A stretch of 64,000 bases of DNA from Microbulbifer sp. YPW16 (GTDB taxonomy: Bacteria > Pseudomonadota > Gammaproteobacteria > Pseudomonadales > Cellvibrionaceae), in the NCBI RefSeq assembly GCF_021290385.1, contig NZ_CP089928.1:1-64000 (forward strand). Direction: 5' to 3'. Numbering within the stretch: the first letter of the stretch is position 1; each line of letters begins with the position of its first letter. The notes under the pieces were generated by a model that made no database searches, was not told where the DNA came from, and worked only from the letters and a program-made list of their open reading frames with translations. Both the position numbers and the translations under genes were made by a program. Of the stretch, positions 2,335-29,189 are shown one piece after another.

Positions 2335-3308
2335 ACGCGATTCTTTCCCTGGCCTGGCTGTTTGTCCTGCTGGCAGCGGGCGGCTGGGCCATGGGGTGCC
2401 TGGCCAGTGCGCTGGTTTCCCGTTTTGCTTTCCGCGAGGGCCTGTCGCCACTGGCACGTCGTCGCCACAGTTTTACCCTTGCCGCCCTGCCTCTGCTGGC
2501 CATGGCCGCCCTGGTCGCAGCGGTTGCCACGACGGCACTGGGCAAGTCCCTGGGCTGGGTGGTGGATCACTGTATCTACCACGGCCCGGGGCATCCCCAT
2601 CTCTGTTTCAGGCACCTGCCGGCCATTGATCTCGGGCTTGTCGAGTTCGTTGCGGCTGTGCTGCTCCTCTCAGGTATCAGCTACATCATCGTCGGCTTTG
2701 CCTGCCGGGAGTACCGGGCGGGCAAACATATTCGCAGCCTGCTGCGGCTGGTAGAGGGACGCCGTCCCGATCGCAAAATACACACCGTTGAGGATCACAG
2801 TCCTTTTGCCGTCACTGCGGGCACATTTTCGCCGCGCGTGATCCTGTCACGGGGCCTGCTCGACAGGCTGGAAGCGCGGGAGCGGCGCATCGTGGTTGCG
2901 CATGAAGTGTCCCACGTGCGCGCGCGGGACCTTCTCTACAACGGGGTATTCGAAATCCTGCTGCTGCTCCAGCTGCCGGCTACCGCGTCCCGCCTGCGCA
3001 GCGAGTGGCGCCAGGGGATGGAGGAAAGCGCGGATGACCGGGTTGCGGGCCGCTTCGGCCGGGAAGCGGTCGCCGCAACCCTGCTCAAGGTTTTCCGCCT
3101 GCAACGTGGCGAGGTAATGCCCGGGCTGTCGGTGGCGGGGGCCGACGCCGTGATGCGTATCGAGCGATTGCTGTGTCCCATTGAGAGCAGAGGGAATGGC
3201 CGTGTTTTTTCTGGAATTCTGCTCGCTGCCATTTGTGCCCTGGCGCTGTTATCGGCTGGCGCGCACCACGAGCTGGAGACCCTGCTCGGACTTCTCACGG
3301 GACACTGA
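2331..3308 (+). CDS. M56 (BlaR1-like) membrane metalloprotease, no sensor domain
   Basis: Protein of 325 residues with N-terminal membrane helices (about 5-25, 45-65, 100-125), a cytoplasmic protease domain with the gluzincin motif HEVSH (about 191-195) and a later helix near residue 297-312. ARDLLYNG and EESADDRVAG following the HExxH motif fit M56. BlaR1 and MecR1 carry an extracellular penicillin-binding sensor domain; this protein stops after the last helix and has none. By family knowledge it would cleave the BlaI-type repressor encoded just upstream when a signal arrives. What it senses is unknown; the downstream pump suggests metal or envelope stress. Confidence 0.85.
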   Translation: MNAILSLAWLFVLLAAGGWAMGCLASALVSRFAFREGLSPLARRRHSFTLAALPLLAMAALVAAVATTALGKSLGWVVDHCIYHGPGHPHLCFRHLPAIDLGLVEFVAAVLLLSGISYIIVGFACREYRAGKHIRSLLRLVEGRRPDRKIHTVEDHSPFAVTAGTFSPRVILSRGLLDRLEARERRIVVAHEVSHVRARDLLYNGVFEILLLLQLPATASRLRSEWRQGMEESADDRVAGRFGREAVAATLLKVFRLQRGEVMPGLSVAGADAVMRIERLLCPIESRGNGRVFSGILLAAICALALLSAGAHHELETLLGLLTGH

Positions 3309-4901: not shown

Positions 4902-6501
4902 AAACCTTGTCCGGGCGCTGGCACTGGCCGCGCTCGGCTTCGGCCTGGCTGCCTGCGGCGAACCCGAAGGCAGCGGCCACGGCCATGCACATGGACCCAG
5001 CGGCGGTCATGGGGCAGGAGGCGCTCATGGAGAGGGCGGCCACGACGGCGGTGGACATGGCCATGGTGATGCGGGGCCGACCCTGGTCTTTACCGACTAC
5101 ACCGATACCACTGAATTGTTTGTGGAATTCCCGCCCCTGGTTGCCGGGCAGACCTCGAAATTTGCCGCCCATGTCACCCGGCTTGCCGACTCGGCGCCGC
5201 TGGAAAGCGGGCGCGTCGACGTGGTTCTCAAGCGGGGCGACAGCATAGCCGCCCGTTTCCGTGTGCGGGAGCCCGCGCGTACCGGCATTTTTACCCCGGG
5301 GGTTAAGCCGCGTGACGCGGGGGAATTCCGCCTGCTGATCGAAGTGCAGGATGGGGAGCTGCAGGCCACCCATGACCTGGGCATGGTGCGGGTCTACCCG
5401 TCGGCGGCAGAGGCGGTGGTTGGCCAGGCTGAACCCGAGGGTGACATCAGTTACCTGAAAGAGCAGCAGTGGAGCAACCCATTTGCCTCCACCGAGGCGC
5501 AGCTGCGTCCCATGCGCCCGTCGGTACCGGCGTTTGCCACCGTGGATGCACCTGCGGACGCGGGCGCCCAGATCCGGGCACCCGCGGATGGTTATTTCTC
5601 CCATGCGGGGATGGCCCGGGCCGGGGATGTGGTTGAGAGCGGGGCCGTGCTGGGATACCTGGTACCGCGCCTGGGCGGCGAGACCGACTTTGGCCAGTTG
5701 CTGGTAGCGATGGAGCGGACACGTTCGCAACTGTCACTGGCCAAGCGCGATGTCGAGCGCCTGGAGCGACTCTACCAGCAGGGCGCGATCGCCGAGCGCC
5801 GGCTGGTGGAAGCCCGGGAAGAACTGGAGGTCGCCAGGGCAGAATTCGCAGCCGCCAGGGCGCGCGTCGAACAGTACCAGGGCGGCAGTGCCGAGGCCGG
5901 CATTGCCTTGCGTGCACCGGTCGCGGGCGAGGTGGTCGAGTTCAATGCCCGCCCGGGCGCATTCGTGCAGGCCGGGGAGCGGGTCTTCCGCATTGCCTCG
6001 CAGGATCGTCGCTGGCTCGACCTGGCGGTGCCGGAACGCTTTGCCGCCGATGTCGCCGCAGCCAGTGGCGCCTGGCTAGAAACTGCAGGGGGCGACACGG
6101 TAGTGCTGGATGAAGCCAGTGGCGCGCGTGTAGTGCAGGTCAGTTCTGCCGTGGACCCGAAAACACGCACGGCGCACGTCACGGTCGAGTACCCGGTTTC
6201 CCTGGGGCCGACCATTCTCGGCGCACGCTTGCCCGCGCACGTGTTCACGGCGCCGGCGGAGCCGCGGCTGGCTATCCCGCGCAGTGCGGTGATTGATGAT
6301 GGCGGTCGCAACGTAGTGTATGTGCAGACCGGCGGTGAGACATTCGCGCGTCGCCCGGTGGAGCTGGGTATTGTCGACGGTGAGATGGTCGAGGTGCTGG
6401 ACGGCGTGGCAGCGGGTGAGCGGGTGGCCTCGAAGGGGGCCTATTTCGTCAAGCTGGCATCGGTCGGTGGTGACGAAGTGGGGCACGGCCACGCACACTG
6501 A
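4891..6501 (+). CDS. periplasmic membrane-fusion protein of a heavy-metal RND pump
   Basis: Protein of 536 residues from ATG 4891, inside the end of the preceding gene. It has a lipobox (ALGFGLAAC, lipid Cys at 22) and then a His/Gly-rich stretch to about residue 60 (GHGHAHGPSGGHG), a beta-rich domain, a lipoyl half (RAPADGYFSHAGMARAGDVV), a helical hairpin (residues 270-325), the second lipoyl half (RAPVAGEVVEFNARPG) and a beta-barrel domain (LAIPRSAVIDDGGRNVVYV). It ends GHGHAH, so both ends are metal-binding in composition. This is a CusB/CzcB-type adaptor linking the inner-membrane pump to the outer-membrane duct. The His-rich ends favour Zn/Co/Cd/Ni-type over Met-dependent copper transport. 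Confidence 0.87.
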   Translation: MSTKNLVRALALAALGFGLAACGEPEGSGHGHAHGPSGGHGAGGAHGEGGHDGGGHGHGDAGPTLVFTDYTDTTELFVEFPPLVAGQTSKFAAHVTRLADSAPLESGRVDVVLKRGDSIAARFRVREPARTGIFTPGVKPRDAGEFRLLIEVQDGELQATHDLGMVRVYPSAAEAVVGQAEPEGDISYLKEQQWSNPFASTEAQLRPMRPSVPAFATVDAPADAGAQIRAPADGYFSHAGMARAGDVVESGAVLGYLVPRLGGETDFGQLLVAMERTRSQLSLAKRDVERLERLYQQGAIAERRLVEAREELEVARAEFAAARARVEQYQGGSAEAGIALRAPVAGEVVEFNARPGAFVQAGERVFRIASQDRRWLDLAVPERFAADVAAASGAWLETAGGDTVVLDEASGARVVQVSSAVDPKTRTAHVTVEYPVSLGPTILGARLPAHVFTAPAEPRLAIPRSAVIDDGGRNVVYVQTGGETFARRPVELGIVDGEMVEVLDGVAAGERVASKGAYFVKLASVGGDEVGHGHAH

Positions 6502-6516
6502 TGTTGGGAATAGCGA

Positions 6517-9500
6517 ATGATTGATCGAATAATCCAGTGGTCCCTGGGGAATCGCCTGCTGATCCTGGCCGGCGCAGCCCTGCTGTTCGTCTGGGGCACC
6601 TGGACGACGCTGAAGGCTCCGGTGGATGTGTTCCCCGACCTGACCGCGCCATCGGTGACGGTGGTGGCGGAGGCGCACGGAATGCCGCCGGAAGATGTCG
6701 AGAGGCTGATTACCTTTCCGCTGGAAACGGCCATGAACGGTGCCAGCGGCGTGCGGCGTGTGCGCTCCAACAGCGGCATTGGTATCAGTGTGGTTACGGT
6801 GGAGTTCGAGTGGGGTATGGATATCTACCGTGCCCGGCAGATTGTCAGCGAAAAGCTGCAGACCGTGCGCGCGTCGCTGCCTCCGGACCTGCCGTCGCCG
6901 GTGCTGGCACCGGTTACCTCGATCATGGGCGAGATCCTGTTTATTGCCCTGACCTCGGATGTACATGACGAGATGACCCTGAAGACCACGGCTGACTGGG
7001 TCGTGCGCCGCCGCCTGCTGGCAGTGCCGGGTGTCGCCCAGGTGATTCCCACCGGCGGCCAGACGCGCCAGTTCCAGGTGATCGCCACACCGGAACGCCT
7101 GGCGGCCTATGGCGTTACCCTGGGCCAGCTGCGTGAGGCGGTGGCCGCCGCCAGCCAGAATGCATCCGCCGGGTTTGTCACCGAGAACGACCAGGAGTTT
7201 TTGATCCAGGGTGTGGGTCGCGCCCGCGGCCTGGAAGATATCCGCCAGGCCGTGGTGACCACCCGCGATGGCGTGCCCGTGCAGGTACGCGACCTGGCCA
7301 GTGTCGAGACCGGCCCGGCGCCGCGCCGTGGTACCGGCTCCTACCGCGGCGAGGCGGCGGTGGTGCTGGGTATCCAGAAACAGCCCGACGTCAACACGCT
7401 GGCACTGACAAAACGCCTGGATACCGTGATTGATGATATCCAGGCGTCGTTGCCCGAGGGCATGCGTATTGAGACAGATGCATTCCGCCAGGCTGATTTC
7501 ATCAACGTCGCCGTCGATAACCTCGCCGCCGCCCTGCGGGACGGGGCCATCCTGGTTGTTGCCATCATGTTCGCCTTCCTGTTCAGTGCGCGGGCAACCG
7601 GTATCGCGCTGTTGGCAATCCCGTTGTCACTGCTGGTGGCAGTGCTGGTAATCCGTTACCTGGGGGGCAGTATCAACACCATGACCCTGGGCGGGATGGC
7701 CATTGCGCTGGGCGCGCTGGTGGACGATGCCATTATCGTGGTGGAAAACATTGTGCGGCGCCTGCGGGAAAACCATGCCCTGCCGGAGGCCGGGCGGCGC
7801 AGCAATGTCGCCGTGGTGTTCGAGGCGACCCGCGAAATCGAGGGGTCGATTGTCTTCGCGACACTGATCATCATCCTGGTATTCCTGCCGCTGTTTTTCC
7901 TCAGTGGTGTGGAGGGCCGCCTGCTCGAGCCCCTGGGCCTGGCCTATGTGGTCGCCCTGGCGGCGTCGCTGCTGGTCGCTGTTACCGTTACGCCGGTGTT
8001 GTCCCTGCTGTTGTTGCCAAACAGCGACCCGGTGCACAAGGATCACGATACCCGCTTTATCAGCTGGCTAAAGGCCCGCTACCGACCGGTCCTGGCCGGT
8101 GCCATGCGCTACTGGCGCAGTGTCCTGGCAGGTTCCACCGCATTGCTGCTGGTAGCCATCGCCGGCCTGGTGTTGGCGGGCCGGGGATTCCTGCCGGAAT
8201 TCAATGAGGGCAGCCTCACCATCAGCGTGGTCACCCTGCCGGGGACATCGCTGGAGACGTCGGATGAAATCGGCCAGCGGGTGGAGAAGATCCTGCTGGA
8301 GCAGCCGGAGGTGGTGGCCACCGCGCGCCGCACCGGCCGCGCCGAGCTGGATCCCCATGCGCAGCAGGTTTTCGCCTCCGAAATCGATGTCACTTTGGTG
8401 ATGCAGGAGCGGGAGAAAGACGAGTTGCTGGCGAGCCTGCGGCAACGCTTTGCCGGCATTCCCGGAACCAACGTGGTGATCGGCCAGCCGATCTCGCACC
8501 GGATCGACCATATGCTGTCCGGCACGCGGGCGAATATCGCAATCAAGATTTTCGGCGAGGACCTGTTTGAGCTGCGTCGCCTGGGCAAGCAGGTGGAGTC
8601 CCGGGTAGCGGAGATCCCCGGTGCCGTGGATGTGGCGATGGAGCAGCAGAGTGAGATTCCATTTGTCGCGGTGAATTTCAATCGCCCGGCACTGGCCAAT
8701 TACGGCATGACAGTCGCTGAAGCGGCCGAATCACTGGAGACCGCCTTTACCGGCACCGAAGTGGGCCGGATCCTGGAAGGGCAGGCGAGTTTCGACCTGG
8801 TGGTGCGTTTCCCCGAGTCCGCCCGGGACAATATCGACACCCTGCGCGAGACCATGTTGACCCTCGACAACGGTGCGCGAGTGCCATTCGCGGCAATTGC
8901 GGATATCCGTCGTGAACGCGGGGCCAACACCATCAGCCGCGAAAATGTACAGCGCAAGCTGGTGGTGATGGCCAATGTCGCCGGTCGCGACCTGATCAGT
9001 GTGGTGGAGGATATCCGCGTGGCCCTGGGGGACAGCATTTCCCTGCCCACCGGTTACCACATCGAATACGGTGGCCAGTTCGAGAGTGCGGAAGCCGCCG
9101 GTACCCGGCTGATGTTGCTGGGGGCACTGGTGATTGTGGGCATCTTCCTGCTGCTGGTCGCTGCCTTCGGCAATACCCGTGAAGCCTGGCTGGTGATGCT
9201 GAACCTGCCACTGGCCCTGATTGGCGGAGTACTGGGTGTCTGGCTCACCGACGGCATCGTCACAATTGCGGCAGTGATCGGCTTTATCACCCTGTTTGGT
9301 ATTGCCACGCGCAACGGTGTGATCCTGGTGGACCATATCGGGCGGCTGCAGCGGGACGGGGGGATGGCGCTGGCGGACGCCATCCGGCAGGGCGCCGAGG
9401 AGCGACTGGTTCCCATCCTGATGACCGCCCTGGCCACGGCGTTTGCGCTGGTGCCCCTGGCACTGGCCGCGGGCCAGCCCGGCAGTGAAATCCAGGCGCC

Positions 9501-9606
9501 CATGGCTATTGTCATCCTCTGCGGCCTGATCAGTTCCACGGCGTTGAATATGGTAGTGGTGCCGGTGATGTACCAGCGCTTCTTCGCCGGAAAATCCACC
9601 GGCTAA
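6517..9606 (+). CDS. heavy-metal efflux RND transporter (CzcA/CusA family)
   Basis: Protein of 1029 residues with the RND plan: a first helix (LLILAGAALLFVWGTW), porter loops, helices 2-6 around 345-500, a second porter half, and helices 8-12 at the end. Family marks are APVDVFPDLTAPSVTV near the start, MPPEDVERLITFPLETAMNG, and the helix-4 proton-relay segment GALVDDAIIVVENIVRR. The pump would export metal ions from cytoplasm or periplasm at the cost of protons, together with the fusion protein 15 bases upstream and the duct protein. The metal cannot be read from sequence alone; the His-rich partners point to Zn, Co, Cd, Ni or Cu. Last gene of the operon. Confidence 0.9.
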   Translation: MIDRIIQWSLGNRLLILAGAALLFVWGTWTTLKAPVDVFPDLTAPSVTVVAEAHGMPPEDVERLITFPLETAMNGASGVRRVRSNSGIGISVVTVEFEWGMDIYRARQIVSEKLQTVRASLPPDLPSPVLAPVTSIMGEILFIALTSDVHDEMTLKTTADWVVRRRLLAVPGVAQVIPTGGQTRQFQVIATPERLAAYGVTLGQLREAVAAASQNASAGFVTENDQEFLIQGVGRARGLEDIRQAVVTTRDGVPVQVRDLASVETGPAPRRGTGSYRGEAAVVLGIQKQPDVNTLALTKRLDTVIDDIQASLPEGMRIETDAFRQADFINVAVDNLAAALRDGAILVVAIMFAFLFSARATGIALLAIPLSLLVAVLVIRYLGGSINTMTLGGMAIALGALVDDAIIVVENIVRRLRENHALPEAGRRSNVAVVFEATREIEGSIVFATLIIILVFLPLFFLSGVEGRLLEPLGLAYVVALAASLLVAVTVTPVLSLLLLPNSDPVHKDHDTRFISWLKARYRPVLAGAMRYWRSVLAGSTALLLVAIAGLVLAGRGFLPEFNEGSLTISVVTLPGTSLETSDEIGQRVEKILLEQPEVVATARRTGRAELDPHAQQVFASEIDVTLVMQEREKDELLASLRQRFAGIPGTNVVIGQPISHRIDHMLSGTRANIAIKIFGEDLFELRRLGKQVESRVAEIPGAVDVAMEQQSEIPFVAVNFNRPALANYGMTVAEAAESLETAFTGTEVGRILEGQASFDLVVRFPESARDNIDTLRETMLTLDNGARVPFAAIADIRRERGANTISRENVQRKLVVMANVAGRDLISVVEDIRVALGDSISLPTGYHIEYGGQFESAEAAGTRLMLLGALVIVGIFLLLVAAFGNTREAWLVMLNLPLALIGGVLGVWLTDGIVTIAAVIGFITLFGIATRNGVILVDHIGRLQRDGGMALADAIRQGAEERLVPILMTALATAFALVPLALAAGQPGSEIQAPMAIVILCGLISSTALNMVVVPVMYQRFFAGKSTG

Positions 9607-9657
9607 CGCTGCCGGCAGGTTGCTGGCCGGGGCGGTGCAGTGGCCGGCCCGTGCTGG

Positions 9658-10524
9658 CTATGCCAGCGGCAGGTAAATATCGGTCACCATTTCAGCCTCC
9701 GGCACGTCCGGGAAGAAGCTGACCCGCTCGAAAAACAGCGGGAAATCCCGTAATTCTTCGTCCGAGCCGGGCAGCCAGTCGCTGTACAGTGCCCGCACCA
9801 CCCCCTCCAGACCGGAGTCCGGCCCGCAGTGGCGTACCCGCGCACAGCGTCCGCCGGGAATCATATCGGCGTAGATGGCGGTATCGTCGCCATCCACCGG
9901 GCCACGGGTCTCCGCGCAGAGACTGAAACGATACTCCGCTGCCGGGGTGGCGGAGGGGTCGTCAAAGACCAGGTTGAAAGTACGGCTCTTCGCCGGCGAC
10001 AGCCCGTGCAGCCGTCGCCAGGCGATAAACTTGCGGATGGTATCGCCCAGCAACTGTGGCGGGCCGACGTGGTCGAGTCGTGCTACCAGTACCTGCGCAA
10101 ACTGCACCAACTCAACTGTCGGCGATTGGTTAATGTTATTCACGATAGGAACCTCGCGGCTTGTGGTCTGCTGATCCTGCCCTTCCAGCCATGCCCAGTC
10201 CGGCTGTGTCCTGAATTTGGTGGGGCCGCTGCCGGAAAGTCGCTGGAATGCTCGGGAGAATGCCTCAGTGCTGCCGTAGCCCGCGGCAAGGGCAATGTCG
10301 GTGACTGACAGGGCAGGGCGGTACGCCAGCTGCCAGGCGGCCCGGCGCAGGCGCAGGCGGCTGATGTAGCGGGCCAGGGTAATGCCCTGGCTGGCAGAGA
10401 AGCAGCGGTGCAGGTGGTACTTCGAGAAGTGGGCCACACGGCTCAGCTGGACCAGGCCCAGGTCGCCGTCCAGGTTGGCATCAATATATGCCCTTAACTT
10501 TTCGATCCTGTTCCTGGTATTCAA
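9658..10524 (-). CDS. AraC-family regulator with GyrI-like ligand-binding domain
   Basis: Two parts: an AraC/XylS DNA-binding domain at the N-terminus (IEKLRAYIDANLDGDLGL, FSKYHLHRCFSASQGITLARYI, ALAAGYGSTEAFSRAFQRLSG) and a GyrI-like small-molecule-binding domain from about residue 125 (VELVQFAQVLVARLDHVGP to the C-terminus). This is the Rob/SoxS-related layout of multidrug-type activators. I chose the TTG at 10524 because GGGGAGG lies six bases upstream; a GTG at 10560 in the same frame has no such site. It converges with the metal pump gene. Targets are not evident. Confidence 0.85.
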   Translation of the reverse strand: MNTRNRIEKLRAYIDANLDGDLGLVQLSRVAHFSKYHLHRCFSASQGITLARYISRLRLRRAAWQLAYRPALSVTDIALAAGYGSTEAFSRAFQRLSGSGPTKFRTQPDWAWLEGQDQQTTSREVPIVNNINQSPTVELVQFAQVLVARLDHVGPPQLLGDTIRKFIAWRRLHGLSPAKSRTFNLVFDDPSATPAAEYRFSLCAETRGPVDGDDTAIYADMIPGGRCARVRHCGPDSGLEGVVRALYSDWLPGSDEELRDFPLFFERVSFFPDVPEAEMVTDIYLPLA

Positions 10525-20760: not shown

Positions 20761-21771
20761 TTAGCCGGACGGCAGCGCAGTCCTGAGACGATCCGCCGGG
20801 CTCAATACACCCAGGCCGCCCCGGTTCACTACATGGGTATAGATCTCCGTGGTGCCAATATCGGAATGGCCCAGGAGCTCCTGGATTGTCCGCAGGTCAT
20901 AGCCGGATTCCAGCAGGTGGGTGGCAAAGCTGTGCCGGAAGGCGTGAGTGCGGGCCGGTTTATGGATACCTGCGCTGCGAACTGCCTTGCGCACGTGCTT
21001 GGTCAGTGTGGAGGCATGCATATGGTGGCGGCGCTCGGTGCCCGAACGAGGGTCGATAGAGGTAATTGTTGAGGGGAACAGGTACTGCCAGCCAAGTTCC
21101 CGTGCGGCGTTCGGATACTTGCGGGCCAATGCATCCGGGAGAAAAACCTCGCCCAGGCCGTTAACCAGATCCTGGGTGTGAAGAAGTTCCACCCGCCGAA
21201 TCTGCCGTCGCAGCTCCGTCTGCAAGCCCTGGGGCAACATGGTAGTTCGATCCCTGTTGCCTTTCCCGGCGCGTACATAAATATTGTTGCTGCCAAAATC
21301 AATATCCTTCACGCGTAATGAAAGCAACTCGGCACTCCTCAGGCCAGTGCCGTACATCAGTTCTACCTGTAGGCGGTAAATGCCTTGTAGCTGGTCGAGA
21401 ATCGCTCCGATCTCCGCTGGGCTGTACACAACCGGTAAGCGACGCGGCTGTTGTGCCGGACTGAAGTTGAGGGCATCGGTGTCCCTGCCGAGGAAGCGCT
21501 TGTACAGGTACACGAGTGAGTTCAATGCGATTCTCTGGGTGTTTACCGAGCAATTTCTCTCTACGCTCAGCTCTGACAGGAACCTCTCAATCTCCCCTGG
21601 GCCCATTTCAGTAGGGTGGCGCAGCTTATGAAAGTGAATGTAGCGTTTGATCCAGTGAATATAAGTCTGTTCCGTACGGTACGATAGTCCAGCTTCGCGC
21701 ATGTGCAGCCTCAGACGCTGTATAAACCTCCCTGCCTTGCTTTTCGGGATCCGATGGCGGATATCATCCAT
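20761..21771 (-). CDS. intI: integron integrase (tyrosine recombinase)
   Basis: Protein of 336 residues from ATG 21771, with GGAGG five bases upstream. Order: N-terminal SAM-like arm (LRLHMREAGLSYRTEQTYIHWI), core with GTGLRSAEL (catalytic Arg), and HAFRHSFATHLL, LLGHSDIGTTEIYTHV with His, Arg, His and the nucleophile Tyr. The insert ALARKYPNAARELGWQYLFPS to HMHASTLTKHVRKAV is the extra patch that separates IntI from other tyrosine recombinases and recognises folded attC. It integrates and excises cassettes between attI and attC. A LexA box overlaps its promoter, so expression is probably SOS-induced. The gene is intact. Confidence 0.96.
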   Translation of the reverse strand: MDDIRHRIPKSKAGRFIQRLRLHMREAGLSYRTEQTYIHWIKRYIHFHKLRHPTEMGPGEIERFLSELSVERNCSVNTQRIALNSLVYLYKRFLGRDTDALNFSPAQQPRRLPVVYSPAEIGAILDQLQGIYRLQVELMYGTGLRSAELLSLRVKDIDFGSNNIYVRAGKGNRDRTTMLPQGLQTELRRQIRRVELLHTQDLVNGLGEVFLPDALARKYPNAARELGWQYLFPSTITSIDPRSGTERRHHMHASTLTKHVRKAVRSAGIHKPARTHAFRHSFATHLLESGYDLRTIQELLGHSDIGTTEIYTHVVNRGGLGVLSPADRLRTALPSG

Positions 21772-21787
21772 AACAACCTCCACTGAA

Positions 21788-22094: not shown

Positions 22095-22580
22095 ATGAAA
22101 CAAAAAATTTTTGTACTTCTAGCTGTCATTAGTTTCAGTTCAGCGGCGACTGAACTTGAAGTTTCTACTGCGAATATCTCTTGTATTGGTCATAATCAAA
22201 ACGGATTTTACGAATACCGTGTTGGCTTAGTTCTAAAAAATACTTCGGACAAAGAAATTACATTGATTTCAAAGTCACAAGGGGGGTCAAAGCATTATGA
22301 TGATCCAGCTGTACCTACAGTACTGATTGGCAACGTCAATGAGCTTAAGATCGACGGCGTTTTAATTGTGCCAGATAGTGCGGAACTTGGATTAGTAACC
22401 ATCCAACCTACAGAGGGTGCCCAAGTGTATGAAATATATAAATCAAGATCGCCTCTGGGTCAAAAGGCTAAAGTGGGTTATCACGCTACATCCGCGTATG
22501 GTGGTAGATTTAATAACTGGCAGGGTGTAGTAACTTCAGATGCGGAAGATATTGCAAACTATGCGGCGTGCCAGCCATAA
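22095..22580 (+). CDS. cassette 1: small exported protein, unknown function
   Basis: Protein of 161 residues starting 14 bases after the attI/cassette junction. MKQKIFVLLAVISFSSAA is a signal peptide; the mature domain looks beta-rich (YRVGLVLKNTSDKEITLIS resembles an immunoglobulin-like strand pair). No family recognised. AT-rich codon use differs from the chromosome. As the first cassette it should be the best expressed from Pc. Confidence 0.75.
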   Translation: MKQKIFVLLAVISFSSAATELEVSTANISCIGHNQNGFYEYRVGLVLKNTSDKEITLISKSQGGSKHYDDPAVPTVLIGNVNELKIDGVLIVPDSAELGLVTIQPTEGAQVYEIYKSRSPLGQKAKVGYHATSAYGGRFNNWQGVVTSDAEDIANYAACQP

Positions 22581-22690
22581 CAAGGTGCTGCAGCTGACGT
22601 CATACTTATGCGCTTTTCGCGCGGTCGCTATGCTCCTATTTTTGCGCAAAAAGCGCATAAAGTAAGCCGCTACTGAGCACGGCGTTATGA
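22577..22690 (+). other. attC site of cassette 1
   Basis: Left end CATAACAAGGTGCTGCAG, right end CTGAGCACGGCGTTATGA; GTGCT pairs with AGCAC and CAG with CTG. The interior holds a second inverted pair, ACTTATGCGCTTTT and AAAAAGCGCATAAAGT. About 114 bases. Confidence 0.8.
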
Positions 22691-23102: not shown

Positions 23103-23447
23103 ATGAATTTAAGTCCTCTAGAGCAAAAAATATTCGATCTGTTGATTCAAGAAGATCCTGAAAAAGAAATCCTTAAAAGCCAGATTTCTCAAGTAGAGAT
23201 TCTAGAGCGTAGTTATAGCGGCGTAGGAGTATTCACAAAATTTAAGGTGAGCGAGTCCGCAGAAAAATTAGGTAAAGAGAGAGTAAAGCTCGAAGATTTT
23301 CCAGGGGCTTACCTTACACATCCTGCTTTAGAGGCAGGCGCAGGTGTCATACTATGGTTAAATTCTGGCTTCCTGGATACCTTAGAGTGTTTTACATATG
23401 GTGGTGACTGGCCAGCTAATGAGCAGTTATTCACAGTCCACACATAA
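23103..23447 (+). CDS. cassette 3: small soluble protein, unknown function
   Basis: Protein of 114 residues starting 7 bases after the cassette junction. It is soluble and acidic at the start (MNLSPLEQKIFDLLIQEDPEKE), with GVGVFTKFKVSES in the middle and the end LECFTYGGDWPANEQLF. This layout resembles small proteins often found as integron cassettes, but I cannot name a family. No signal peptide. Confidence 0.7.
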   Translation: MNLSPLEQKIFDLLIQEDPEKEILKSQISQVEILERSYSGVGVFTKFKVSESAEKLGKERVKLEDFPGAYLTHPALEAGAGVILWLNSGFLDTLECFTYGGDWPANEQLFTVHT

Positions 23448-23557
23448 CAAGCAGCGGCAGAGCGACAGCCAACGCTACGCACCTTTTGTGTTACTCGCTG
23501 GCGCTCAAACATTAACACAAAATGCGCTCCGCGCTGGCTGCGCCTGCGCTGGGCGTT
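23444..23557 (+). other. attC site of cassette 3, interrupted by an IS
   Basis: Left ATAACAAGCAGCGGCAG and right CTGCGCCTGCGCTGGGCGTT; the palindrome is well formed. The core is split by the IS: GTT at 23555-23557 is followed by IS sequence, and the complete core GTTAAGC resumes at 25343-25349. About 113 bases, with roughly five differences from the attC of cassette 4. Confidence 0.85.
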
Positions 23558-25341
23558 CTGGCTGTAGAAAAACTCTTAAAATATAGTGTTTTTTGATAGA
23601 ATTGGCAGGTCGAAAAGGGGAATCCCGCCATGCCAAACTTCAAGCGGTACAATTACAACCAGGACGCGATGGTTGTGATCAATTTCGAAGAGCAATTGCA
23701 GCCGAATACCTTCGAATTTACCCTCCACCACCTGATCGATGACCATATCGACCTGTCTGCCTTCTACGAAAAGTACCAGAATGACGCCGGTGGTCGATCG
23801 GCTTACGATCCCGCCATTCTGTTAAAGATCATCCTGTTCGCATACTCCAAGGGCATCACCTCCAGCCGCGAGATCCAGTGGCAATGTGAGCACAATATCA
23901 TCTTCAAGGCGCTTTCCTGCGATTCAGTGCCGCACTTCACCAGTATCGCCAGCTTTGTCAGCAGTTACCCGGATGCGATCGAGTCGATCTTTGAGCAGGT
24001 ACTGATGGTATGTGACCAGGAGGGACTGCTGGGCAACGAGCTGTTTGCGATTGATGGTTGCAAGATGCCGTCGAATGCCAGTAAGGAGCACTCCGGTACA
24101 TTCAAGGAACTCGAGCAAAAGCAGGCCAAGATCCGCAAGAAGATCCGGCACTGCATCAAGGAACACAAGAAGCTGGATGGCCGCAAGCCCGCCGAGCGGG
24201 AGCGCAAGCAGCGACTGGCGCAGGCGACGGATACGCTCAAGCAGCACTTCGAGAAGATAGACAAGTTCCTAAAGACGCAAGCCCCAAGGATGGGGCAAGG
24301 CAAGACCCCGAAAGAAGTCAAAAGTAATATCACCGACAATGAGTCGGCCAAGATGACCACCAGCAAGGGCACCATCCAGGGGTACAACGGTGTCGCCGCA
24401 GTGGACAAGAAACACCAGATCATTGTCGAGGCGCAGGCTTTCGGCGAGGGCCAGGAATACCATACGCTCAAGCCCATGCTGGATGGTCTCACCGCACACT
24501 ACCGGAAAGCCGGCATCCATCCGGACATCCTCGCCGATGGCACCATCGTGACCGCCGATACTGGTTTCTCCAACGAGGGCAATAATGCCTATCTGAAAGA
24601 GGAAGGCATCAACGCCTATATCCCCGACAACCAGTTCCGCTCGCGGGACAAGGCGTTCGCCAAACAAAAAGAAAAGTATGGCAAGCGTCATCGCGATACC
24701 CTGGTGGGCGTCAAGCAGGTGATTCCTGCCAGGGAATTCACCTTCGATAAGCGCCGCAAGACCTGTATCTGCCCAGCCGGTAAAGAACTGCTTCTCTACA
24801 GGGAGGAGCAAGTCAGTGAGGGCAAGCGCAAGCTGTTCTTTGAGGGCCGCCTGACTGACTGCCGCCACTGTCACCTCAAACACCAGTGCATGCGCAACCC
24901 CGGTTCTGCCGATACCCGCGACGGCCACGGCCGGCAGGTGTCCACCACCTGGACCAATGGCCGCACGGCGACCGACTGGATGAAAAAGCGCGTCGACAGT
25001 ATCGCGGGAAAGACGATCTATAGTCACCGGATGTCGGTGGTAGAGCCGGTGTTCGGTAATATTGGTACCAATAAACGGCTAGGCCGTTTCTCTTTACGTG
25101 GTCGTGAGAAGGTCCAGGGGCAATGGCGTATGTTCTGCCTGGTGCATAACATTGAGAAGTTGATGAGATACGGGGCGATCCACTGATTCACAGGGATATC
25201 CACACTCGTCTGCGCAAAAGAGGCCCTTAATACGTGCAATGAGTGATTATGTAAAACGGATGTGTTTAAATCGTGATCATTAAACTTATAAGAAAGAGAG
25301 CCGATGGGATATCAGGTTGTCATCCTGTTTTTCTACAGGCT
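23558..25341 (+). mobile_element. IS1182-family insertion sequence in an attC core
   Basis: Length about 1784 bases. The terminal inverted repeats are GGCTGTAGAAAAAC (23560-23573) and GTTTTTCTACAGGC (25327-25340), 13 of 14 matching. CGTT at 23554-23557 and again at 25342-25345 looks like a 4-base target duplication. Removing the IS and one CGTT restores GGGCGTTAAGC, a normal attC core. One transposase gene is intact, so the element may be active. Confidence 0.85.
23630..25186 (+). CDS. IS1182-family DDE transposase
   Basis: Protein of 518 residues, full length. The N-terminal part has HLIDDHIDLSAFYEKYQND and GGRSAYDPAILLKIILFAYS, typical of the family; catalytic residues fall in AIDGCKMPSNASKEHSG (Asp), TADTGFSNEGN (Asp) and SVVEPVFGNIGTNKRLGRFS (Glu). 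A Cys-rich insert (CRHCHLKHQCMRNP) is also typical. GC-rich codon use contrasts with the AT-rich cassettes around it, so the IS came from a chromosome-like background. Confidence 0.93.
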   Translation: MPNFKRYNYNQDAMVVINFEEQLQPNTFEFTLHHLIDDHIDLSAFYEKYQNDAGGRSAYDPAILLKIILFAYSKGITSSREIQWQCEHNIIFKALSCDSVPHFTSIASFVSSYPDAIESIFEQVLMVCDQEGLLGNELFAIDGCKMPSNASKEHSGTFKELEQKQAKIRKKIRHCIKEHKKLDGRKPAERERKQRLAQATDTLKQHFEKIDKFLKTQAPRMGQGKTPKEVKSNITDNESAKMTTSKGTIQGYNGVAAVDKKHQIIVEAQAFGEGQEYHTLKPMLDGLTAHYRKAGIHPDILADGTIVTADTGFSNEGNNAYLKEEGINAYIPDNQFRSRDKAFAKQKEKYGKRHRDTLVGVKQVIPAREFTFDKRRKTCICPAGKELLLYREEQVSEGKRKLFFEGRLTDCRHCHLKHQCMRNPGSADTRDGHGRQVSTTWTNGRTATDWMKKRVDSIAGKTIYSHRMSVVEPVFGNIGTNKRLGRFSLRGREKVQGQWRMFCLVHNIEKLMRYGAIH

Positions 25342-25359
25342 CGTTAAGCGTAAAATCTC

Positions 25360-25998
25360 ATGAAGATCATTTTCACTTCTCCATTTAATCCTTTATGGTC
25401 TGAAGGGGTGTCTAAAATGGCATCTCTTCTAGAAGCCGAAGTGGTTTCTATTGGAAACTTGTTGAGAGCAGAAGTGAAAAGCAACACGAAGCTGGGAAAA
25501 GAGATAGAGACAGCTCTATATGGCGGAGAAATTTTAAGCGCTGATATAGTCAGCAAGCTGCTACTACACAGATTTTTTAGAGACTCGGCGAGAAAAATAT
25601 TGGTTAACTATCCAATAAATACTATGCAGGCGGAATCGCTTGTGGAATCTATGAAAAAATCTGAATATGGCGTCACTGCTTGTGTAGTCGTCGACTCTAC
25701 TAAAAAAGTAATTACAAGAAAATTTGAATCACAGTTTCACTGTGCTGATCCATTGCATCCAAGCTTGGAAAGCTCAGCAGGCATTCCTGAGTGTGAAGTG
25801 TGCGGGAGACCGATGATTCATTCCTATGATCTGAGTAATGACAAAGTGGCTTATCTAATTGATTCATATTTTAATGAGAATGGTGTCTTATCATCCGCGT
25901 CTACATTGAGTGAAAAACTTCGTGTAGAAACCTTTTGGTTTACGACCCCGGAGGAAGTCGTAAACCAAATCCAAGGTTTGAGCCATGAAAACGCTTAA
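25360..25998 (+). CDS. cassette 4: adenylate-kinase-like protein without P-loop
   Basis: Protein of 212 residues. Its length and motif order follow adenylate kinase: MKIIF at the start, VVSIGNLLRAEVKSNTKLGK (standard: ISTGDMLRAAVKSGSELGK), GGEILSADIVSKLL (standard: AGKLVTDELVIALV), ILVNYPINTMQAESL (standard: FLLDGFPRTIPQADAM), then a lid-like part with CADPLHP and CEVCGRPM, a four-Cys zinc-lid remnant, and YFNENGVL near the end. The ATP-binding P-loop GAPGAGKGT is replaced by TSPFNPLWSEG, and the GFPRT Arg is lost. It is probably not an active kinase. It may bind nucleotides or a partner kinase; that is an inference. Confidence 0.75.
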   Translation: MKIIFTSPFNPLWSEGVSKMASLLEAEVVSIGNLLRAEVKSNTKLGKEIETALYGGEILSADIVSKLLLHRFFRDSARKILVNYPINTMQAESLVESMKKSEYGVTACVVVDSTKKVITRKFESQFHCADPLHPSLESSAGIPECEVCGRPMIHSYDLSNDKVAYLIDSYFNENGVLSSASTLSEKLRVETFWFTTPEEVVNQIQGLSHENA

Positions 25999-26112
25999 CA
26001 AGCAGCGGCAGAGCGAAAGCCAAGGCTACGCACCTTTTGTGTTACTCGCTGGCGCTCAAATATTAACACAAAACGTGCTCCGCGCTGGCTGCGCCTGCGC
26101 TGGGCGTTACGT
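25994..26112 (+). other. attC site of cassette 4
   Basis: Left CTTAACAAGCAGCGGCAG and right CTGCGCCTGCGCTGGGCGTT, nearly identical to the attC of cassette 3. The TAA stop of the cassette gene is the first part of the site. Core GTTACGT at 26106-26112. Confidence 0.85.
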
Positions 26113-26127
26113 GATGGTAGCTAAACA

Positions 26128-26802
26128 TTGAAATTTGTATTTCTACCAGGAATGGATGGAACGGGATTGCTCTTCAATGAGCTAATTCTGAATATCCCAA
26201 AAGAAATAGACCGAGAGGTTGTTTGCCTCAACGAAATACAGGGCGTGAGCTACCGCCAGCAAGCTGAGCAGATAGCCGAAAAAATTGAATCATCAAGCGT
26301 TGTAGTGGTCGCTGAATCATATTCCGGAAGAATTGCGTATGAATTATGCAATATCCTTGGCAGCAGAGTTTCGAAGGTAGTTTTTATAGCTAGCTTTGTT
26401 TCTTGCCCCGGAAGGCTCGCAAAGCTTGCTGCTGTCCTGCCGGAGTGTGTTCTTAAGCCTAATCTGTTTCCAAACTGGCTTATGAAAGTGCTATGTTTTG
26501 ACGGACGTGGTAATAGGGCGCTAATGGATCAAGTTCGCCAAGCTATTGCACAGGTTGGGCCAAGCGTTTTAAAACAGCGCTTATTGAATATTGCTGAACT
26601 TGATGAACCAAAAGGTCATCAATCAACTACAGCCGTGTATATCCGGCCAACAAATGATCACTTGGTTGCGTATGATGCAATCAAAGTTCTGGGTAATATT
26701 TATCCCCAGTTAAGTATCGAATCTGTGGAAGGGGGACACTTCATTGCTCAAACGGCCCCGGAGTCATGTGCGAGAGTCATAGTCCGTGCCAAAACCACGT
26801 AA
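26128..26802 (+). CDS. cassette 5: alpha/beta hydrolase
   Basis: Protein of 224 residues from a TTG start (no in-frame ATG upstream within the cassette). FLPGMDGTGLLF is the oxyanion-hole region; VVAESYSGRIAYEL is the nucleophile elbow (Ser in ESYSG); Asp lies in RPTNDHLV and His in VEGGHFIAQ. The lack of a signal peptide puts it in the cytoplasm. Substrate unknown, ester or amide likely. The TAA stop starts the attC. Confidence 0.82.
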   Translation: MKFVFLPGMDGTGLLFNELILNIPKEIDREVVCLNEIQGVSYRQQAEQIAEKIESSSVVVVAESYSGRIAYELCNILGSRVSKVVFIASFVSCPGRLAKLAAVLPECVLKPNLFPNWLMKVLCFDGRGNRALMDQVRQAIAQVGPSVLKQRLLNIAELDEPKGHQSTTAVYIRPTNDHLVAYDAIKVLGNIYPQLSIESVEGGHFIAQTAPESCARVIVRAKTT

Positions 26803-26863
26803 CAAGCGGTTGTAGTCGCCGCGAAAGTGGTAGCAGATCACGCCCCTAAACCGAGCGTTATGA
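26798..26863 (+). other. attC site of cassette 5
   Basis: A short site of about 66 bases. Left CGTAACAAGCGGTTGTAG, right CCTAAACCGAGCGTTATGA; GCGGTT pairs with AACCGAGC. Confidence 0.75.
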
Positions 26864-27140: not shown

Positions 27141-27206
27141 CAAGGTGGTCAACGAGACGCCAACTGCGCTGCGCTCCGTACCGACGGCTTAGCCCAGGCG
27201 TTACGT
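27136..27206 (+). other. attC site of cassette 6
   Basis: Left CATAACAAGGTGGTCAACG, right TTAGCCCAGGCGTTACGT. About 71 bases. The interior GCGCTGCGCTCCGTACCG is part of the stem. Confidence 0.72.
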
Positions 27207-27576: not shown

Positions 27577-28059
27577 ATGAAGTTGTTCTGGAATAGTTTG
27601 ATCAGCCTAGCTCTATTTATCAGTGGAACCCCTCTTTGTACGAGCGAAACTAAAGCTAAAGAGCTCCTTCAGGGCTCTTACTGCGAAAAACACGGCCAGG
27701 CGGCAAGCATGGCCGCTGTAATGAGGGTCGCTCAGCGAATGTCGAAGGAGCCTAAGAGCGATAGCGAGCAGCTAGAGTTTGCGCTTGCAATAGCGGCTAC
27801 CTACCAAGATGAACTAGATCTTAATGAAGAGGCAGCGTTCGCATTGTTCGCTTATCCGTATCGTGCTCAGGTCCACCCTAATTTTCTTTTAGATAGCAGA
27901 GCCCACAGGCATATTTTTTTCAACTTGTGTGAAGCTAAAATTGCGGTTACTGAAGTAAAAAATTTGAACCGTCCCCTGGCGGCTGCTTGCTTCGATCAGG
28001 CTAAAGCGGAAGGCCGCTTAAATCGTATTGATTCCTGCATCGTAGACCTATTTAGGTAG
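27577..28059 (+). CDS. cassette 8: exported protein, unknown function
   Basis: Protein of 160 residues starting 17 bases after the cassette core. MKLFWNSLISLALFISGTPLC is a signal sequence. The mature part is mostly helical with several Cys (GSYCEKHGQA, FFNLCEAK, AAACFDQAK, IDSCIVD) that could form disulphides. No family recognised. Confidence 0.7.
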   Translation: MKLFWNSLISLALFISGTPLCTSETKAKELLQGSYCEKHGQAASMAAVMRVAQRMSKEPKSDSEQLEFALAIAATYQDELDLNEEAAFALFAYPYRAQVHPNFLLDSRAHRHIFFNLCEAKIAVTEVKNLNRPLAAACFDQAKAEGRLNRIDSCIVDLFR

Positions 28060-28217: not shown

Positions 28218-29189
28218 GTGAAATCTCTAATAATACGGAAGTACGGATCACCTGACTTTCTTGAAATTCACGATGTCATAAAACCTATCCCAGCTGATGA
28301 TCAGGTGCTGGTCAAAGTTAATGCTGTCTCAATCAACGACTGGGACTGGGGGTTGCTGAAAGGGGCACCGTTCATCCCAAATCGTTTCATGGCAGGTCTG
28401 ATTAGGCCGAATATCACCATAGGCTCCGATATCGCTGGTGTAGTTGAAGCTGTGGGCAGTGAAGTCAGTTCATACAAGCCTGGCGACGAAGTGTACGGTG
28501 ATCTTTCCGGCTGCGGATTCGGGGGATTTGCAGAGTATGTATGTGCCCCGCACAATGCCGTGAAGCCTAAATCCCCAGCTATGAGCTTTGAGCAGGCGGC
28601 CGCTATCCCTCAGGCAGGCATGCTTGCTCTGCAGGCAATTGTGGCGGATCGCCAGCCTGAGCCAGGACAGTCAGTTCTGGTAAACGGCGCTGGGGGCGGC
28701 GTCGGTAGTCTCGCCATCCAACTCCTGAAGCTCCAGGGCCTTGAGGTGACCGGGGTTGATAGTGCAGAAAAACTGGAGGCAATGCGCTTGTGGGGATTCG
28801 ATCACGTGATTGACTATCGAACCACGGATTTCACGCAAAATGGAAAGCGTTATGACCTCATTGTCGATGCCAAGAGCGATCGGTCTCCAGCGGACTATGA
28901 ACGTGCTTTGAACCCTAATGGTGCTTACGCAGCCGTAGGTGGGCCAACACTCAACTTGCTGAAGGTCGCGCTCTCAGGCTTACGCATAAACCGTGAACGA
29001 GATAAGAAGCTTCGGGTTATAGCACTCGAGGCCAATCGCGACCTGGCATACTTTAACGAACTTTTCGAGGCTGGGAAGTTCAGGCCAATAATTGATACGG
29101 AGTTTGACTTCACAGATGTGGATGTGCGCAATGCATTCCATCATTTCGCTGAGGCGGCACACAAAGGAAAGATCGTTGTTCGCTTATAA
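28218..29189 (+). CDS. MDR-type NAD(P)-dependent oxidoreductase (quinone reductase-like)
   Basis: Protein of 323 residues, full length. The GroES-like start has KPIPADDQVLVKVNAVSIN and GSDIAGVVEAVGSEVSSYKPGD; the Rossmann part has VLVNGAGGGVGSLAIQL and VTGVDSAEKLEAMRLWG. There are no zinc-ligand Cys, so this is the quinone oxidoreductase branch that reduces enones or quinones with NADPH. It lies just outside the last clear attC with a 100-base leader and may be a further cassette; the site after it is unclear. Confidence 0.85.
   Translation: MKSLIIRKYGSPDFLEIHDVIKPIPADDQVLVKVNAVSINDWDWGLLKGAPFIPNRFMAGLIRPNITIGSDIAGVVEAVGSEVSSYKPGDEVYGDLSGCGFGGFAEYVCAPHNAVKPKSPAMSFEQAAAIPQAGMLALQAIVADRQPEPGQSVLVNGAGGGVGSLAIQLLKLQGLEVTGVDSAEKLEAMRLWGFDHVIDYRTTDFTQNGKRYDLIVDAKSDRSPADYERALNPNGAYAAVGGPTLNLLKVALSGLRINRERDKKLRVIALEANRDLAYFNELFEAGKFRPIIDTEFDFTDVDVRNAFHHFAEAAHKGKIVVRL

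Follow-up and report, generated by a model that had tools for sequence, protein, structure and literature searches.

We describe a gene of Microbulbifer sp. YPW16 that is apparently carried as a gene cassette of an integron and whose product has the predicted body of adenylate kinase (Adk) and a rebuilt active site. The gene occupies positions 25360 to 25998 of the window, by which we mean the whole stretch of 64,000 nucleotides that was analysed (contig NZ_CP089928.1, positions 1 to 64,000). Its product, here called pseudo-Adk, is almost certainly not an Adk enzyme. Because most of the replaced residues are strongly conserved within its own family, it is, to judge from the sequences, likely to work by binding or sensing and not as a kinase. 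In the reading that we tentatively favour, with a probability of about 0.45, pseudo-Adk would hold a single small ligand resembling a nucleotide in the old cleft, would leave it unphosphorylated, and would serve to sense or to sequester it.

Adenylate kinase ancestry and the former active site

A preliminary description of the window, made from the letters alone, had proposed an Adk relative that lacks the P-loop for adenosine triphosphate (ATP). Profile searches against the Adk family bear out the relationship. PF00406 (Pfam ADK) matches the product of the open reading frame (ORF) with 47.4 bits (E 2.9e-12), which exceeds its cut-off of 26.8, and TIGR01351 (NCBIfam adk) aligns to residues 19-170 with 51.1 bits (E 1.3e-13), below its cut-off of 168 bits. 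At E <=1, 21 NCBIfam models were retrieved, all scoring under NCBI's cut-offs: 19 adenylate kinase models, a UMP-CMP kinase subfamily and one translation factor at chance level. A search of the sequences of solved structures (E <=1) returned 86 sequences, and the 60 listed are adenylate or UMP/CMP kinases throughout. The predicted structure is an Adk fold with core, nucleoside monophosphate (NMP)-binding domain and lid. Structure comparison (VIA-align) was examined for a different fold with a better score; 49 of the 50 rows listed are titled adenylate or UMP/CMP kinase, the remaining one being a ciliary central pair chain (7n6g). The similarity is far beyond chance, and the product would by descent be an Adk homologue within the Pfam ADK superfamily. 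The host chromosome also encodes a canonical Adk elsewhere, whose P-loop is intact, and pseudo-Adk is therefore a second, different gene. Its features are as follows:

25360..25998, plus strand: pseudo-adenylate-kinase ORF, 212 codons plus stop (homology by profile, fold predicted)
25378..25404, plus strand: former P-loop, codons 7-15, now SPFNPLWSE (by alignment; Trp13 and Ser14 invariant in 16/16)
25465..25467, plus strand: codon of Arg36, presumably the arginine on the side of adenosine monophosphate (AMP) (by alignment; kept in 16/16)
25627..25629, plus strand: codon of Gln90 (Q92 of host Adk), which we take to be the adenine-contact glutamine (by alignment; kept in 16/16)
25741..25803, plus strand: lid with C128-x4-H133 and C145-x2-C148, a likely metal site (by alignment)

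Sites were counted in a MAFFT alignment of 16 family members with four canonical Adks, using host Adk numbering; their roles are those that we assume from the E. coli enzyme. The loss of the P-loop is plain: positions 7-15 read GAPGAGKGT in host Adk and SPFNPLWSE in pseudo-Adk, the motif GxxGxGK[ST] is absent, Lys13 is replaced by Trp and Gly14 by Ser in all 16 members, and glycine is retained at Gly10 in none of 15 and at Gly12 in none of 16. Asp84 is likewise kept in 0/16. The arginine of GFPRT (R88), also said to be gone, is indeed Ile in the window protein and lost in 13 of the 16 members, but three members still have Arg. Four further losses come in addition to those first claimed: R119 is Lys in 13/16 members, R123 is Gln in all 14 that have a residue there, R156 is Ser in 14/16 and R167 is Leu in 15/16. 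The window protein thus has I, K, Q, S and L at R88, R119, R123, R156 and R167, which we take to be the catalytic and phosphate-binding arginines. Because Lys13 and these five arginines are lost (one to Lys), ATP handling of the known kind is very unlikely.

Other sites have been retained or newly fixed. R36, P87 and Q92 are each kept in all 16 members, G32 in 15 and D158 in 13. The AMP side is only partly preserved, since T31 has given way to Ile, Phe or Val in every one of the 16 members and G85 is kept in three. T89 is Asn throughout (Asn87 of the window protein), and this residue, Trp13 and Tyr156 are new, invariant and, by alignment, at the border of the cleft. Eighteen columns are invariant across the 16 rows; E38 is the only acidic residue among them, and Asp, His and Cys do not occur.

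The lid had been described as a zinc type with Cys pairs. It is present in the window protein, but it carries C128-x4-H133 plus C145-x2-C148, and in two relatives, P0012 and P0015, the lid is missing altogether. The four residues are invariant in all 14 lid-bearing members and likely form a metal site, in a region where the alignment is less certain than elsewhere; for the family, the lid is dispensable. The Adk of Desulfovibrio gigas (3l0p, 2xb4), an enzyme of the long-lid metal type, matches residues 29-181 of pseudo-Adk by sequence. Both share the core, the NMP-binding domain and a metal-type lid (predicted for pseudo-Adk), and the equivalents of Arg36 and Gln92 are kept. In contrast to the enzyme, pseudo-Adk lacks the P-loop, Lys13, R88, R119, R123, R156 and R167, has the lid ligands C-x4-H ... 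C-x2-C, and shows the new invariant W-S and N87.

Family, selection and distribution

A search of a database of 5.8 billion proteins yielded 12 matches, the window protein among them. With a profile built from these 12, which scored the 7996 candidates sharing most words, 18 proteins were found at E <=1e-10. P0001-P0016 extend down to E 1.7e-45 and are followed, after a gap, by two canonical Adks (P0017, P0018) at 4e-11. The 16 rows of the alignment are this family with the protein of Rheinheimera sp. EpRS3 added and P0016, a fragment of 105 aa, left out. Their frames are open, with P0010 lacking the first 11 residues, and pairwise identities range from 34% to 97% (median 54%). When six canonical Adks were included in a tree, all 16 members fell on one side of a branch with a support of 100/100; the lidless P0012 and P0015 group together weakly (86/12) and are set apart from the other 14 (91/97). 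Two members are annotated by JGI as 'adenylate kinase'.

The former P-loop is among the most conserved parts of the protein. Residues 7-15 have a mean entropy of 0.57 bits, compared with 1.21 for the whole protein, and rank seventh among 204 nine-residue segments, the six better ones all lying within residues 1-14. Between the window gene and that of Rheinheimera, nonsynonymous divergence (dN) is 0.23 and synonymous divergence (dS) 1.36, a ratio of 0.17 that is rough because dS is near saturation and a single pair was compared; dN is lowest in residues 1-30 among the five stretches compared. These values point, roughly, to purifying selection. Low dN together with a conserved rebuilt loop is the pattern expected from a binding cleft with a new selected use, and as far as the sequences tell, the family has been repurposed and decay is not the explanation.

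Relatives are scarce in sequenced genomes. A scan of genome_contigs (84,980 species) turned up 40 pattern stretches and a single relative, that of Rheinheimera sp. EpRS3; the two peptide patterns used would miss the lidless type, and the window's own genome perhaps lies outside this collection. Whole-genome profile searches were positive in 1/369 genomes for the class, 1/144 for the family and 1/398 for the phylum of the host, the sole positive being the window's own genome, and the gene is absent from the remaining 143 genomes of the host family searched in this way. At the level of the order, 2/293 genomes were positive, the second with a canonical Adk, and in the family of Rheinheimera 1/295, again Rheinheimera sp. 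EpRS3. The taxon samples overlap and the counts were not merged; each search had its own E-value limit. None of the genomes searched revealed this cassette in another strain.

A phage origin was rejected: phage records (one query) and PHROGs (two members) contained no relative, and neither did the 65 and 246 pattern stretches obtained from IMG/VR. Plasmid copies were sought by tblastn with three members, which gave 3, 24 and 1 records, all below 60% identity; the two that were translated both have an intact P-loop and are therefore ordinary Adks.

Proposed ligand binding and competing explanations

If pseudo-Adk binds a ligand, the old NMP side would be the place for it, because R36 and Q92 remain there and Trp13, Asn87 and Tyr156 are invariant at the cleft border. 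The ligand would be single, small, weakly charged and adenosine-like. A nucleoside or a monophosphate would be expected in preference to ATP, because apart from R36 hardly any of the charges that hold phosphate are left. Closure of the NMP domain upon the ligand could serve as the output signal of a sensor, or the protein might act as a sponge, with a possible role in stress or phage defence.

Several points weigh against this reading. R88, R156 and R167, which presumably also contact AMP, are changed together with T31 and G85, and AMP itself may not bind. The conserved Trp, Tyr, Asn, Arg and Gln of the cleft could equally form a new active site. Some of the 16 rows are nearly identical to one another (97% between P0003 and the protein of Rheinheimera), so that they count as fewer than 16 independent witnesses, and the ratio of dN to dS is open to the reservations given with it. 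None of the 16 members matches PADLOC-DB at E 0.01. The link to defence is suggestive and consists of a Shedu gene next to pseudo-Adk at one of the two loci whose DNA surroundings are available; a single such neighbour in two loci is no evidence of a functional pair.

The strongest rival to ligand binding is a new enzyme, in which the cleft (Trp13-Ser14, Arg36, Asn87, Gln90, Tyr156) would have been rebuilt to catalyse a different reaction, on a substrate resembling a nucleotide; it might, for instance, cleave or modify a nucleoside or a nucleoside antibiotic. In favour of this explanation, many invariant positions coincide with the old active site, as those of a catalytic centre would, and integron cassettes often encode enzymes, including drug-modifying ones. 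Counting against it are the composition of the 18 invariant columns, in which E38 is the sole acidic residue and Asp, His and Cys are missing, and the absence of the lid's Cys/His set from both lidless members; we consider it possible but unlikely.

Pseudo-Adk might also dock, by virtue of its Adk shape, to host Adk, to a phage nucleotide kinase or to an Adk partner and alter its activity, as the preliminary description had suggested. The entire shape is predicted to be kept, and proteins of this fold do have partners, such as human AK2 in the solved AK2-AIFM1 complex (9fl7) and AK4, which the title of a work in the reference list of PMC10399197 calls enzymatically inactive and which is reported to interact with the ADP/ATP translocase. 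Docking is nevertheless rather improbable: conservation is strongest at positions that the alignment places in the old active-site cleft, a location more in keeping with a ligand than with a partner bound at the surface, and lidded and lidless members would need to dock alike.

A narrower version of the ligand-binding reading, that of a cassette-borne immune sensor, would have an NMP kinase converted into a receptor that detects nucleotides raised or altered in phage attack. Deoxynucleoside monophosphates released as DNA is broken down could be among its ligands, and the gene would be kept in integron reservoirs, at times beside an effector such as Shedu; we regard this version as quite improbable. 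A decaying Adk pseudogene carried in the array, to which the loss of key catalytic residues, the insertion sequence (IS) in front of the gene and the lack of a promoter-like site between 25150 and 26130 might point, is rejected as highly improbable in view of the open frames at 34-97% identity, the purifying selection and the conservation of the rebuilt loop. An Adk that has kept its activity in some other way, or that now serves a different NMP, has next to no chance and is likewise rejected, for although the Pfam ADK cut-off is passed and two members bear the JGI label, the score falls short of the NCBIfam cut-off, and Lys13 and the catalytic arginines are jointly gone in all or nearly all members (R88 kept in 3/16).

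Genomic setting and significance

That the gene is cassette-borne, as first described, agrees with its surroundings. With an attC site directly 3' of the ORF and an integrase and an array adjoining, pseudo-Adk is, by its position, the gene of an integron cassette:

20761..21783, minus strand: integron integrase, a tyrosine recombinase by profile, its 'integron' type taken from the position beside the attC array
22575..22690, plus strand: attC of the first cassette of the array (hairpin search)
23442..23557, plus strand: attC of the upstream cassette, interrupted in its R' half-site by the IS (hairpin search)
23554-23557 and 25342-25345: CGTT flanks of the IS
23558..25341, plus strand: IS, with outer limits that follow from the CGTT reading
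23562-23573 and 25327-25338: inverted ends of the IS, 12 bp, perfect
23630-25186: DDE transposase of the IS (profile)
25343..25349, plus strand: R' half-site GTTAAGC on the right side of the IS, followed by 10 bases and the ATG of the pseudo-Adk gene (direct reading)
25993..26112, plus strand: attC of the pseudo-Adk cassette, hairpin-forming, with R'' GCTTAAC, which overlaps the stop codon, and R' GTTACGT
26797..26863, plus strand: attC of the next downstream cassette, 67 bp (hairpin search)

The attC spans are those of a relaxed detection script, and a stricter script did not report them. The attC region behind pseudo-Adk (25991-26108, 118 bp) is 94% identical to 23440-23557, and a further possible attC ends near 27206. 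The upstream boundary of the cassette is split by the IS, presumably of the IS1182 type, which sits in the R' half-site of the upstream attC. Since the ATG follows GTTAAGC after 10 bases, the cassette has almost no leader. The IS may sever the cassette behind it from the integron promoter, or provide a new promoter. The G + C content of the ORF is 40%, compared with 60% for the window, as expected for an acquired gene.

The next cassette (26128-26802) encodes an alpha/beta-hydrolase-like protein just below the Pfam cut-off (Abhydrolase_6, 22.1 vs 26.3 bits). Three ORFs of the cassette region, 22095-22580 (161 aa), 23103-23447 (114 aa) and 27577-28059 (160 aa), have no Pfam match, and a comparison of five other proteins of the window's cassette region with PADLOC gave no match. 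A gene resembling zinc-type alcohol dehydrogenase / quinone oxidoreductase (28218-29189) lies beyond the detected attC sites, on their right. A second integron-type integrase, 67% identical to that of the window, is encoded on the same chromosome (2076917-2077909).

DNA neighbourhoods were available for two of the 16 alignment rows, the window and Rheinheimera sp. EpRS3. In the latter, the pseudo-Adk gene is preceded, at a distance of 107 bases, by a full-length gene for SduA of the anti-phage system Shedu (PADLOC PDLC00394, E 5.9e-173; Pfam SduA_C, 2.8e-32). The spacer between them closes with a sequence, taken as a degenerate attC, that is 82-86% identical over 29-38 bp to attC ends of that genome's own integron and has a damaged R' site, and a related repeat of 61 bp (79% identical) follows pseudo-Adk, so that a repeat stands behind both genes. 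At this locus the strict hairpin script reported no attC, and the relaxed one gave 12 candidates, none of them at gene borders. The locus reads as two adjacent former cassettes, Shedu and pseudo-Adk, away from the integrase. Behind pseudo-Adk are two overlapping ORFs (8948-10121 of the locus, minus strand); a motif in one of them resembles what we take to be an AHH/HNH nuclease, perhaps with its partner. The integron of this genome (contig C7:110000-125000) has at least two attC repeat types in one array, with copies at 3060/4101/8205 and at 5488/6911/7779.

No published description of the family was found in the open-access library searched, which does not prove that there is none. Human AK4, described as an enzymatically inactive isozyme, is comparable in that it has the Adk fold and is assigned a function besides phosphotransfer. 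AK4 retains the Adk P-loop, whereas loop and catalytic set are rebuilt in the pseudo-Adk family. Accessory peptide deformylase (PDF) genes offer a parallel of another kind, being relatives of a core bacterial enzyme in integron cassettes with the ATG close to the recombination site, 25-28 bp behind it according to PMC12690207. Most accessory PDFs are reported to keep their catalytic residues, unlike pseudo-Adk, and one such cassette conferred strong inhibitor resistance (PMC12690207). Shedu and other defence systems are reported from Xanthomonas cassettes (PMC12444791). SduA directly precedes pseudo-Adk in Rheinheimera sp. EpRS3; pseudo-Adk differs in being a separate protein and cassette that no PADLOC model matches.

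For a textbook enzyme, there is here a small bacterial family in which the whole body is predicted to be kept and the catalytic set is rebuilt nearly uniformly, and by this uniformity the family can show how a kinase cleft becomes something else. Its true role is hidden by annotation, because two members are filed as 'adenylate kinase'. Cassettes of unassigned function are a rich source for integron-borne defence, a point on which PMC12444791 cites other work, and if pseudo-Adk is indeed a nucleotide sensor in the cassette reservoir, it would contribute a further module to such defence.
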